Shown here piece after piece: positions 26,809 through 29,846 of a stretch of DNA of 64,000 bases. Every line of letters starts with the position of its first letter. Position 1 is the stretch's first letter. A program made the position numbers and the translations under genes. Origin of the DNA: Pseudomonas baetica (GTDB lineage: Bacteria > Pseudomonadota > Gammaproteobacteria > Pseudomonadales > Pseudomonadaceae); assembly GCF_002813455.1 (NCBI RefSeq), contig NZ_PHHE01000001.1:2666001-2730000 (forward strand), given 5' to 3'. The notes under the pieces were generated by a model, which was given only the letters and a program-made list of their open reading frames with translations, was not told the origin of the DNA and made no database searches.

Positions 26809-27933
26809 ATGCGTTTAGCTGAATTTATCGTGCAGCATGTGGATACCATCGTTGATCACTGGGAAGTCTTTGCCAAAGATATCAGCGCCGACCAGGCTCT
26901 GGATCGCACGACACTGCGCGATCACGCGAAATCGATCCTGCTGGCCGCAGCAAGCGACATGGGCAAGGCGCAAAGTGCCAGCGAGCAAGCAGCCAAGGCC
27001 AAGGGTGAAGGCCCGGAGAAGACCCCGAGTCTGGACGAGGCTGCCGCCAGCCATGGTGAACTGCGCCATACCGTGGGTTTCGATCTGGTGCAAATGACCT
27101 CCGAGTTCCGTCACTTGCGCGCCTGTGTGATCGGTCTGTGGGTCGAGAGTCTGCAGTCACCGGACATGCACTACTTTCAGGATCTGATCCGCTTCAATGA
27201 AGCCATCGACGAGGCGCTCGCCGAATCGACCGCGGCATATGCCGAACAGGTCGATCGTTCGCGGGACATTTTTCTCGCCATCCTCGGCCACGACCTGCGC
27301 GCGCCTCTGCAGGCGGTGAGTCTGTCCAGCGAAATGCTGCTGCGTAAAAGCAAACTCGAAGGCGATGCACTGACCTGTGCCGTGAACATCAAGCAGAGCA
27401 CGCGGCACATGGCCGCGATGGTGGGTGACTTGTTGGAGCTGGTGCGCAGTCGCCTCGGCAAAAGCCTGCCGATCGAGCCGGCGCCGATGGATCTGGCCGA
27501 CGCGGCACGCGCAGCGATTGCCGAAGCGTGCGCGGGCAATCCGGAATGCGACCCGACCTTGAAGATCGAAGGCGATACTCGCGGTACCTGGGACGCCGGT
27601 CGGCTCGATCAATTGCTGCAGAACCTCATCGGCAATGCCTTGCAGCATGGCAGCGACCTGCGTGAGTTGATCGTTACCCTGCGCGGGGACGCCGACACCG
27701 TGCAGCTCAGCGTGCATAACTACGGCACGCCGATTCCCGTTGAAGCGATCGGCACAATTTTCGATCCACTGGTACGCAGCGCCAATGAAACACTCGGGCA
27801 ACCGTCAACCAGCCTCGGCTTGGGCTTGTTTATCGTCAAGGAAGTGGTGAACGCCCACGGCGGGACGATTAACGTCAGCTCGAGCGAGGCTGACGGCACG
27901 CTGTTCAGTGTGGTGCTGCCCAGAAACCTGTAG
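26809..27933 (+). CDS. Sensor histidine kinase
   Basis: A 374-aa soluble kinase without membrane segments. The start at MRLAEFIVQHVD has AAGG nine bases upstream; a longer frame to 26710 lacks a ribosome-binding site. Residues ~1-145 resemble the RsbRD N-terminal sensory family. The phosphoacceptor is His161 in ILGHDLRAPLQ. The ATPase domain shows the N box NLIGNALQHG (~265) and the G boxes SLGLGLFIVKEV (~338). No response regulator is adjacent, so it is an orphan kinase here. It is divergent from the effector operon; whether it controls that operon is unknown. Confidence 0.88.
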   Translation: MRLAEFIVQHVDTIVDHWEVFAKDISADQALDRTTLRDHAKSILLAAASDMGKAQSASEQAAKAKGEGPEKTPSLDEAAASHGELRHTVGFDLVQMTSEFRHLRACVIGLWVESLQSPDMHYFQDLIRFNEAIDEALAESTAAYAEQVDRSRDIFLAILGHDLRAPLQAVSLSSEMLLRKSKLEGDALTCAVNIKQSTRHMAAMVGDLLELVRSRLGKSLPIEPAPMDLADAARAAIAEACAGNPECDPTLKIEGDTRGTWDAGRLDQLLQNLIGNALQHGSDLRELIVTLRGDADTVQLSVHNYGTPIPVEAIGTIFDPLVRSANETLGQPSTSLGLGLFIVKEVVNAHGGTINVSSSEADGTLFSVVLPRNL

Positions 27934-28011
27934 GAGCTGCCGCAGGCTGCGATCTTTTGACTTGGCTTTTAAAAGATAAGATCAAAAGATCGCAGCCTGC
28001 GGCAGCTCCTA
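27929..28011. repeat. Extragenic hairpin repeat (GTAGGAGCTGCCGCAGG family), interrupted at its end by the IS
   Basis: A long near-perfect inverted repeat: TGTAGGAGCTGCCGCAGGCT, then AGATCGCAGCCTGCGGCAGC on the other arm. A relative lies at 50309-50387. The outer end of the right arm (AGCTCCTA) runs directly into the IS element, so the insertion is in the repeat tip. Confidence 0.85.
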
Positions 28012-28059
28012 TGTATGGACTCGCCCCCACTGTCTACCCGTTTTTTGAAAACTGTCGCC

Positions 28060-28200
28060 CCGTTGCATCTATGTATTAGGCCTATTCGTGGAAGCCGTCT
28101 TCGGCCTCTGGCCAAAATTGGAAGAGCTCGTGGCATGCCGATTACAGTCAGGCCTCGAAGGCCAGTAGGAGCTTAGGCATCAATCCACGCCGGTCTTACC
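28060..28200 (-). ncRNA. Candidate bridge (seeker) RNA of the IS element
   Basis: Read 5'-3' on the minus strand, the 3' non-coding end of the element shows a stem ATGCC/GGCAT (28176-28180 with 28135-28139) enclosing AGCTCCTAC (28165-28173), a GGCCTTCGAGGCC hairpin, and CTGTA (28143-28147). Next come TCCAATT (28116-28122), a GGCC-AGA-GGCC hairpin, and ATACATA (28070-28076). The first pair matches the top strand of the left target half and the bottom strand of the right half (AGCTCCTA|CAG). The second pair does the same for the joined element ends (TCCAATTA|TGTAT). Target loop before donor loop is the order known for IS110-family bridge RNAs. Transcript ends are estimates. Confidence 0.7.
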
Positions 28201-28281
28201 TGGGGTCAATTTTTTTCAGCAAAGGGTCGGACAGTCAGTACCTCGGTGGCAGAACTCGGTCGCTCAGTGGCTTATCGTCGC

Positions 28282-29367
28282 TTACTGACCATTACCAGCA
28301 TGACGACGATAAGACTGGTCATTCTGTAGAAGCACCCAGACGATTCGTAGGTTGCGGTTGGCTAACCTGATCGCAGCCTCCTTACGGCCCAGTCGGCTCA
28401 TCCACCGCAACAAGCGGCGGTCATCGGGTTGCAGGGAATCAGGTCGCAGTTGTTGCAGGACCGAATGGGCTCCCTGGATCATCAAGCTGCGTAAATAAAC
28501 ATCACCTCGCTTGGTCATGTCGCCCAGCCGGACCGTCTGCCCGCTGCTGTGCTGGTCAGGCACCATGCCAAAGTACGCGGCAAACTTGCGGGCATTGGGA
28601 AACCGCTCAGGGTTGGTTTCCTTGGCCACCAGTGCCGTGGCAATGACTGGGCCAATGCCGCGCACGGTCATCAGTCGCCTCGCTGTCATGTCGGCGTTAG
28701 CGGCCACTTCCAGGCGGCCCGTCAACACGCCGATGCGCTCGCCCAAATGGCGCCACTCAGCCAACAGTTCGTCGATCAATTCACGCAGCAGGCCAGGCAG
28801 TGGCTGGGTCGCATCTTCCAGTACCCGCGGAATCTTCTGACTGATCGCAACATCGCCCTGCGCCAAGGCCACGCCGTGCTCGAGCAGCAGGCCGCGCATC
28901 TGATTGCTGACCGCCGTGCGTCGACGCACATAGCCCTGACGGGCGCGATGCAGCGCTTGCATTGCCAGCGCAGCAACGCTTTTGACCGGTACCGCGCAGA
29001 TTTTTTCATCGCGACCAGCGCGCAGAATCGCCAGCGCATCGTTGCGATCATTTTTAGGCCCACTGCGGTGTGTGGTCACCAAACCGGCTGGAAGAATCCG
29101 CGCCAGATTACCTTTGTCTTGCAACTGCCGGGCCCAGGCTTGAGCTCCCGGACCGGTCTCCATCAAAACCACGACATGAGGCGGCAGCTGTTGGAGAAAC
29201 TCATAAAACGCCTCACGCGACTTGATCCGCTGTTCATAGCGCACCTGGCCGAGGACATCTTCACCAGCGACCTGAAAGACCTGTTTGGCCAGATCTACCG
29301 CCAAAGTTGTGCAGGCCGACAAATCGGAAGAAGACAGGGATTGATCATTCGAACTATGATTTTTCAT
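28282..29367 (-). CDS. IS110-family (IS1111-group) DEDD transposase
   Basis: A 361-aa recombinase that appears intact. The RuvC-like catalytic residues are visible as Asp25 (LAVDLAKQVF), Glu70 (LMETG), Asp107 and Asp110 (KNDRND). The C-terminal Transposase_20 domain has GIGPVIATAL near 237 and the serine motif QHSSGQ (Ser274/Ser275). These enzymes move a circular double-stranded intermediate without target duplication and are guided by an element-encoded RNA. Only short non-coding DNA precedes the start, while about 270 bases follow the stop, the polarity expected of the IS1111 group. Confidence 0.95.
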   Translation of the reverse strand: MKNHSSNDQSLSSSDLSACTTLAVDLAKQVFQVAGEDVLGQVRYEQRIKSREAFYEFLQQLPPHVVVLMETGPGAQAWARQLQDKGNLARILPAGLVTTHRSGPKNDRNDALAILRAGRDEKICAVPVKSVAALAMQALHRARQGYVRRRTAVSNQMRGLLLEHGVALAQGDVAISQKIPRVLEDATQPLPGLLRELIDELLAEWRHLGERIGVLTGRLEVAANADMTARRLMTVRGIGPVIATALVAKETNPERFPNARKFAAYFGMVPDQHSSGQTVRLGDMTKRGDVYLRSLMIQGAHSVLQQLRPDSLQPDDRRLLRWMSRLGRKEAAIRLANRNLRIVWVLLQNDQSYRRHAGNGQ

Positions 29368-29493
29368 GGACTCGCCCTCGCTGTCGATGGCTGTTTAGAC
29401 TGCCACCGTGGCGCATTGACGCCTCGGCTTGGGCGAGTCCATCCAATTACACGTATCGCGTCGAATGCAAAGTTTATGAACGACGCAGAACCC

Positions 29494-29521
29494 TGTGGGA
29501 GCGAGTCTGCTCGCGAAGAGG
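29494..29521. repeat. Single REP copy, type B variant
   Basis: One REP arm (GTGGGAGCGAGTCTGCTCGCG) without its partner, downstream of cbpM. The core GAGTCTGCTC carries one change from the usual type B GAGCCTGCTC. Confidence 0.75.
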
Positions 29522-29540
29522 CTGGATCAGACAAGCAAAA

Positions 29541-29846
29541 CTATTCGACCACCAACCGCCCCAATCGCTGGCGCAGCATGCGGTTCTCCGCGCGCAGTGC
29601 CTGCACTTCTTCCAGCAGATTCAACGCCAGCGCGACGCCTTCCCACTCCAGGTCCAGATCGCGCCGCAGCTTGGCGGCGCGTTTGGCCAAGGCCAGTTCG
29701 TAATCGGTGAAGCGCCATTCCCGGGGCTGCGCGCCCTGAGGTTCGAGGATGCCGTGTTCGACGATTTCGATCACGTAGACGTCCGACAAATCGGCCGCCT
29801 CACAGAATTCTGCCATGTCCAGTTGAACGATCAGGGGGCTGCTCAT
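29541..29846 (-). CDS. cbpM: Chaperone modulator CbpM
   Basis: A 101-aa MerR-like helical protein. CbpM binds the J-domain of CbpA and blocks its DnaK co-chaperone and DNA-binding activities. Family features are the N-terminal MAEFCEAADLSDVYVIEIVE, the REWRFTDYELALAKRA-like segment near 42-57, and a C-terminal coiled coil (LLEEVQALRAENRMLRQRL). It starts 23 bases after the cbpA stop, so the two are an operon. Confidence 0.92.
   Translation of the reverse strand: MSSPLIVQLDMAEFCEAADLSDVYVIEIVEHGILEPQGAQPREWRFTDYELALAKRAAKLRRDLDLEWEGVALALNLLEEVQALRAENRMLRQRLGRLVVE

Follow-up and report, generated by a model that had tools for sequence, protein, structure and literature searches.

A two-loop RNA encoded downstream of the transposase as the probable guide of a REP-inserted IS1111-group element and its close relatives

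The locus at 28012-29447 of the 64,000-nt stretch of DNA analysed here (the window) raises the question of what directs an insertion sequence to the same end of one repeat at every site that it occupies. The element, an IS1111-group insertion sequence of 1436 bp, lies on the minus strand in a 6.9-Mb single-contig genome, which carries nine copies with identical ends; eight of these, including the window copy, are identical across the 1436 bp, and one has a single base change. On either side of each copy are TGTA and TAGGAGCTG, the latter being the outer end of a REP, and the nine near-identical copies share a single specific target and a fixed orientation, with the insertion point between TGTA and GGAGCTG of the REP. 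A TA common to the element and the target is found at both junctions (28010-28011 and 29448-29449). The genome has 142 occurrences (69+73) of the pattern CTGTAGGAGCTG, as compared with 8 (4+4) for the pattern read backwards.

In the window, the target (TGTAGGAGCTG) is the outer end of a REP doublet with two inverted 30-nt arms (27931-28011, plus strand), and the far side of the interrupted target lies at 29448-29451 (plus strand), reading TGTA on the minus strand. At an orthologous intergenic site in a relative (L245; kinase gene 80% identical), the doublet is uninterrupted and ends CAGCTCCTACAGGGG. A REP of the same type was absent from that site in six other relatives examined there.

The transposase gene (28282-29367, minus strand) encodes 361 amino acids with the PF01548 (DEDD_Tnp_IS110, N-terminal; 41.7 bits, cut-off 29) and PF02371 (Transposase_20, C-terminal; 82.3 bits, cut-off 21.3) domains, and the protein scored 277 bits (cut-off 140) with the NCBIfam model for 'IS110 family RNA-guided transposase'. 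The G--P----SG motif described for such transposases (PMC11187229) is present as GMVPDQHSSG. Subterminal inverted repeats of 12 bp, ATGGACTCGCCC on the left (29431-29442, minus strand) and GGGCGAGTCCAT on the right (28015-28026, minus strand), are within the range of 7-17 bp given for the IS1111 group (PMC11208160), and the non-coding sequence downstream of tnp (270 nt, 28012-28281) is longer than that upstream (80 nt, 29368-29447). As judged by its domains, subterminal repeats, long 3' non-coding end and single target, the element belongs to the IS1111 group of the IS110 family. Its nearest named relatives are from Pseudomonas.

A preliminary description, made from the sequence alone, had placed a bridge or seeker RNA in the 3' non-coding end, with the target loop ahead of the donor loop. 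All motifs quoted in it were located on the minus strand: AGCTCCTAC (28165-28173) and CTGTA (28143-28147) on either side of GGCCTTCGAGGCC (28151-28163), within an ATGCC/GGCAT stem (28176-28180/28135-28139), followed by TCCAATT (28116-28122), GGCCAGAGGCC (28103-28113) and ATACATAG (28069-28076), which contains ATACATA. A two-loop core was placed at 28057-28200 (minus strand), defined by the consensus fold and by the covariance model R1, which scored the window RNA at 165 bits with an identical RNA among the model's own sequences.

This fold was predicted unaided by RNAalifold from 29 diverse cores, with compensatory changes in nine of its 28 pairs, so that the conserved two-loop structure looked for in related elements was recovered. 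The target loop consists of an outer stem (CGCGG/CCGCG in the consensus; CGTGG paired with CCACG at 28185-28189/28129-28133 of the minus strand), an inner stem (TGCC/GGCA) and an apical GGCC/GGCC hairpin, which forms the tip of the loop as GGCC-TTCGA-GGCC (28151-28163, minus strand). The donor loop is built of GC/GC, GGCC/GGCC and GAAGCC/GGCTTC pairings, and a short 5' hairpin lies ahead. In the window, the apical part of the donor loop (28079-28113, minus strand) pairs GGCC (28110-28113) with GGCC (28079-28082) around GAGGCC (28103-28108) and GGCTTC (28091-28096). In a 26-pair version, 98.7% of the cells are paired across the 29 aligned RNAs, and nine pairs show changes on both sides as compared with 2.7 in shuffles (none of 500 as high), although the fold was derived from the same alignment that was used to score it, which favours the fold. 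In the outer stem of the target loop, each of the five pairs covaries through changes on both sides, and the signal was lost when the pairing partners were slid. When the whole non-coding region was folded as a single sequence, the result was only weakly better than shuffles (z -1.43).

The preliminary description had also drawn a GGCC-AGA-GGCC hairpin in the donor loop; this did not hold for the group, as 28 of the 29 aligned RNAs do not form its pair at columns 99-103. The hairpin is thus particular to the window sequence, and the conserved pairing is that between the GGCC segments at 28110-28113 and 28079-28082. A candidate outer stem, GACCCC/GGGGT, that would enclose the two loops (alignment A2) was not adopted, as by eye it is without compensatory changes. 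An Rfam search of 27800-29600 matched no seekRNA family. Its 16 matches were sub-threshold microRNA models on the palindrome of the REP doublet (27931-28011); they were taken as noise, and are a reminder that long hairpins produce such Rfam hits.

Relatives were collected by several searches. A contig scan of genomes gave 29 loci, and a protein search of 398 genomes of the genus, with no more than five candidates scored in each, gave matches in 137. Among these, a close group (identities of 62-96%, mostly at least 71%) has the same ends wherever the sequence covers them. The right-end pattern was present in three of 390 genomes of the order, two of 369 of the class and 16 of 398 of the family, the genome of the window being counted in each. 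No relative of the element was found in the viral contigs searched, and among the 5000 plasmid matches listed all were below 60% identity, with no close relative among them. All right ends were taken by the pattern GGCGAGTCCATACATA, so that the invariance of the right end and the TA of the guide 8-mer are built into these counts; the right ends found when GGCGAGTCCA alone was asked for also continue as TACATA. A looser set comprises 137 parsed right ends, of which 110 have the whole RNA core, with 42 distinct RNAs. Of the 128 right ends in a stricter set, 101 have the core, 23 are truncated by contig ends and four (L054, L168, L173 and L176) are without the core inside longer sequence. The stricter set leaves out one nested right end and eight possible duplicates, and merges two real copies of the element's own genome that share a 30-nt flank.

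Whether the RNA and the target change together was assessed by an unbiased scan of the 42 distinct RNAs, in which every RNA column was compared with 14 right-flank positions for identity and complementarity against shuffles. The six best pairs were columns 27-32 with flank positions 7-2 (counted from 0), which form one complementary antiparallel diagonal. This diagonal is the variable part of an 8-nt target guide, in which six positions are informative and the last two (TA) are fixed by the search pattern. In the window, the guide on the 5' side of the target loop is AGCTCCTA (28166-28173, minus strand), complementary to TAGGAGCT of the REP. With the same reservation for TA, guide and own target match at 8/8 positions in 94 of the 101 copies of the stricter set; the looser count, 103 of 110, includes duplicates and one misassigned row. 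Among the seven mismatching copies, five have one mismatch, L194 matches at 5/8 and L100 at 4/8 positions. Of the distinct RNAs, 39/42 match their own commonest target, as compared with a mean of 6.4 and a maximum of 18 in permutations, which, like the shuffles, ignore the relatedness of the sequences. Ten guide 8-mers were found: AGCTCCTA, AGCTGCTA, GGCTCCTA, CGCTCCTA, CGCTCTTA, CCCTCCTA, CGGTCCTA, CCAACCTA, CCATCCTA and CCACCCTA. Homologues in different flanks thus do not keep identical guides, the ten 8-mers tracking their own targets, and the claim that the element is RNA-guided to the REP is supported by this covariation.

The two sides of the target loop fared differently. While the 8-nt side of the proposed guide pair was upheld by the scan and the permutations, on the second side (TGTA at 28143-28146, minus strand) GTA was found in 83 of 83 cases, in 69 of which the next base, T or C, follows the RNA (mean of 57.0 and maximum of 67 in shuffles), with no covariation signal past GTA and this one base. 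The segment read as CTGTA thus exceeds the supported guide by about one base. Similarly, CAG had been given as the outer target half, but in tnp orientation the base before TGTA is C in only five of the nine own copies and G in the window copy, so that this half is not recognised in full. With tnp as the reference orientation, the top strand is the one to which the 5' guide segment is complementary, which is the IS1111 order, with the top-strand match 5' of the bottom-strand match.

Recognition of the REP by the transposase alone, with the likeness of the RNA to the target accidental or merely inherited, has a precedent in REP-targeting elements of the IS3 family, in which the transposase is thought to choose the target (PMC1525189), and here too both protein and target are common to close relatives. 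However, six neighbouring positions of guide and target change together across ten guide types, transposases 95-96% identical to that of the window go with another guide and another target (AGCTGCTA in place of AGCTCCTA), and one protein clade of the transposase tree bears several guides. Targeting by the protein alone is therefore extremely improbable. A match could also arise if elements occasionally copied the flanking target into the loop and so recorded history, not present targeting. Nothing found here speaks against such capture as a source of new guides. As an account of the match itself, though, it is very improbable: the copies of one element at independent sites keep one guide, and these sites share the guided target bases while the sequence beyond them differs. 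History alone would not put new copies there.

The favoured reading is that of an autonomous IS1111-group insertion sequence with a DEDD transposase that is very probably aimed by a 3'-encoded two-loop seekRNA (bridge RNA). The sequence itself shows the element ends, the copies at one target, the fold with its compensatory changes and the covariation of guide and target. From these we infer transcription and processing of the RNA, formation of a circle, strand exchange and use of the donor loop. The element would excise as a circle with the predicted junction CATACATAATTGGATGG, and the joined ends would form a promoter, TAGACA-17-CATAAT, for transcription of tnp and of the RNA downstream. Of the two strands of the REP end, the target loop would pair with one over 8 nt (AGCUCCUA) and with the other over about 4 nt (UGUA), and the donor loop would pair with the joined element ends. 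Recombination around the shared TA would then place the circle in the outer REP end, between TGTA and GGAGCTG, in one orientation.

As to the junction, TAGACA (28031-28036, minus strand) is a -35-like box situated 17 nt before the CATAAT that would be formed at the joined ends. In the looser set, all 92 copies with both ends yield a CATAAT when these are joined, and a -35-like box precedes it by 16-18 nt. These candidates have 9-11 of the 12 consensus bases, and the inserted right end, which has no CATAAT, scores one or two less. A junction promoter is thus suggested by consensus matches, which are not proof.

The donor loop is the part of the reading for which a different account has to be weighed. 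On the left, the putative donor guide CCAAT (28117-28121, minus strand) matches the left end ATTGG. Across the set, the left ends beside the core are ATTGG, ATTGT, ATTGA, ATTAC, ATCGG, ATCG or ATCAG. The guide follows the left end in all 29 distinct RNAs at position 3 from the core, where shuffles reached at most 27. At position 4 it does so in 27 of 29, a value reached by 0.7% of the shuffles. Position 5 is weak (18 of 29, with 6% of the shuffles as high), and position 7 (21 of 29, 0.02% of the shuffles) owes its signal to one clade with ends shorter by one base. On the right, the putative guide ATACATA (28070-28076, minus strand) is the same as the element's right end, which is invariant across the set. 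The assignment of donor guides thus appears partly supported, and the statement in the preliminary description that all four guide segments can be read was too strong: one target guide stands, the other stands in part (GTA and one base), and the left donor guide is partly supported.

If only the target loop were functional, the protein would read the ends via the subterminal repeats, and the donor loop would be a structural remnant or a processing signal. An 82-nt seekRNA suffices for transposition of ISEc11 (PMC11187229), several lineages (ends ATTAC, ATTGA and ATTGT) have mismatches at the outer donor positions, and the subterminal repeats are strongly conserved, all of which favour this alternative. 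It is nevertheless rather unlikely, as the 29 aligned RNAs keep the pairs of the donor loop, the hairpin of which shows compensatory changes, and the left guide covaries with the left end at positions 3 and 4, the ends ATCGG and ATCAG being paired with the guides CCGAT and CTGAT, respectively.

In the RNA-guided reading, the target guide would have been repeatedly re-aimed among relatives, mostly, as far as the cases were read, towards a palindromic host repeat. On a transposase tree of 32 rows, from which the frame-broken long-branch row c35_L183 and rows of fewer than 200 residues were left out, nine guide types need 10 guide changes, and the targets need 11. Guide AGCTGCTA appears through two changes on well-supported branches, and is most simply taken to have arisen twice.

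Host repeats were counted with four 10-mer patterns in 17 host genomes; the sites for G264, G1375 and G1206 and the host of L055 are outside these counts. YGTAGCAGCT occurs 191 times in G129 and 225 times in G046, as compared with 4-13 times in the other 15. These two are the hosts among the 17 with guide AGCTGCTA, and both are rich in TGTAGCAGCT sites; the host of L055 also has this guide. The sites listed for G046 are mostly inverted pairs about 120-140 nt apart. In each of the 14 hosts whose guide is among the four patterns, the cognate site occurs at least 115 times per genome, and it is outnumbered by another of the four in G129, G275, G182, G104 and G046. A control with the patterns read backwards gave 33-203 sites per genome over the four patterns, including 152 (G129) and 156 (G046) for YGTAGCAGCT, which is not small for 10-mers, so that the contrast between genomes is what counts. 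The only copy read in G046 has guide AGCTGCTA yet is inserted at AGCTCCTA, the site of which is also abundant there (525).

The lineage could be read as a record of natural retargeting, with about 10 and at least eight guide changes, AGCTGCTA reached twice, and each change leading to a palindromic repeat of which the present host has many copies. The donor guide would co-evolve with the left end, insertions with a single mismatch would be stepping stones, and guides would pursue host repeats. The case for such pursuit is evenly balanced, its odds being lowered slightly by the backward control, which is not small.

In G264 (L064 and L113-L117), the guide is CGCTCTTA, and the flank in the copies read is another repeat, TAAGAGCGAAACCATAGG...CCGTTACCGC; one copy, L115, has diverged from this repeat and has one mismatch to the guide.

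Much of this has published counterparts, as IS1111 seekRNAs, REP-targeting insertion sequences, natural re-aiming and two-loop bridge RNAs are already known, the kind having been described in 2024. SeekRNAs of the IS1111 elements ISPa11, ISEc11, ISKpn4 and ISPst6, and natural re-programming among relatives, are described by Siddiquee et al. 2024 (PMC11187229). As described there, these elements, like that in the window, have a DEDD transposase, subterminal repeats, a 3' non-coding RNA and a circle-junction promoter, the RNA carries two target-matching segments with the top-strand match followed by the bottom-strand match, and ISPa11 inserts into a Pseudomonas REP. Unlike ISPa11, from which they are set apart by its description in that report, the window element and its REP are others. 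In addition, as compared with the account of the ISPa11 group there, the second conserved loop of the window element partly covaries with the left end, and the guide types are set against host repeat counts. The bridge RNA of IS621, of the IS110 group, likewise has two loops with target and donor guides and a core dinucleotide, with guides of 8-9 nt on one side and 4-7 on the other, and covaries with target and donor, according to Durrant et al. 2024 (PMC11208160). It differs, in that account, in lying in the left end and in its CT core; the window element has its RNA 3' of the gene, shares a TA with its target and carries subterminal repeats of 12 bp.

ISPpu9 and ISPpu10 of Pseudomonas putida are also IS110-family elements at a fixed REP position, with seven copies each, and ISPpu9 has a small RNA, Ssr9, downstream of tnp (PMC1525189, PMC8450116). 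Likened to the window element by description, ISPpu9 differs in an AG repeat at the junction in place of TA, and its Ssr9 is interpreted in these papers as a counterweight to an antisense RNA. Among the titles and abstracts of the open-access literature, with subscription papers and preprints mostly outside, no paper was found that matches guide types to host repeats for the group.

What is new here, and well supported, is a further RNA-guided IS1111 element with an unusually clear natural data set of guides and targets. It comprises one close group with ten natural guide types and the targets of these, together with intermediates that carry mismatches and counts of the host repeats, and lets one test natural guide change, the mismatch that transposition tolerates and the real use of the IS1111 donor loop. 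The latter was left open in the 2024 reports, in which a short target-matching RNA was sufficient for ISEc11 (PMC11187229) and donor pairing was predicted (PMC11208160).

Beyond the close group, the RNA covariance model matched 14 of 34 other loci at E ≤0.0022, the E-values being rough, and all 14 matches adjoin transposases of about 35-41% identity. These loci represent seven genomes, and several are copies of one element or overlap. Weaker matches were obtained for L168 (E 0.0075) and for L144 and L145 (both E 0.88). The target loop was compared with the downstream flank at 12 of the 14 loci; at L073 the contig stops before the flank. Junction matches of 7 nt in 3/3 copies of G277 and of 9 nt in 2/2 copies of G389 were found, and in G138 the matches of the three copies are 10, 6 and 6 nt long. 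A match of at least 6 nt was absent in the copies read in G333, G187 and G049.

Several copies of the close group have unusual structures. In Pseudomonas sp. Irchel s3h14, L054 has an intact right end at the repeat type TAGCAGCTG and lacks the RNA core, while L055 of the same strain has the core at the same repeat type; a copy such as L054 would need RNA supplied in trans. L173 and L176 are right ends with neither an RNA core upstream nor a left end found, and are remnants or very short derivatives. In G255, two copies (L099 and L100) are neighbours, and the second, with a further right end 73 nt after it, abuts TAGGCCTGATACATAG; this is non-coding sequence of the element itself, as though the copy had inserted into, or recombined with, another of its kind.

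The genome of the window harbours two other IS110 elements, and the RNA model did not match the four loci searched from these. One, unrelated, with a 464-aa frame, is present in three copies (L026, L027 and L028), edged by CTGTAGGAG on one side and, in two of the three, by GAGC and then REP sequence on the other; it apparently uses the same REP, a few bases away. The other, with a 328-aa frame, is present in seven copies (L019-L025), five of which have an identical flank on one side; on the other, the shared stretch ends with CTCCCAC, which we take to resemble the end of another REP class.
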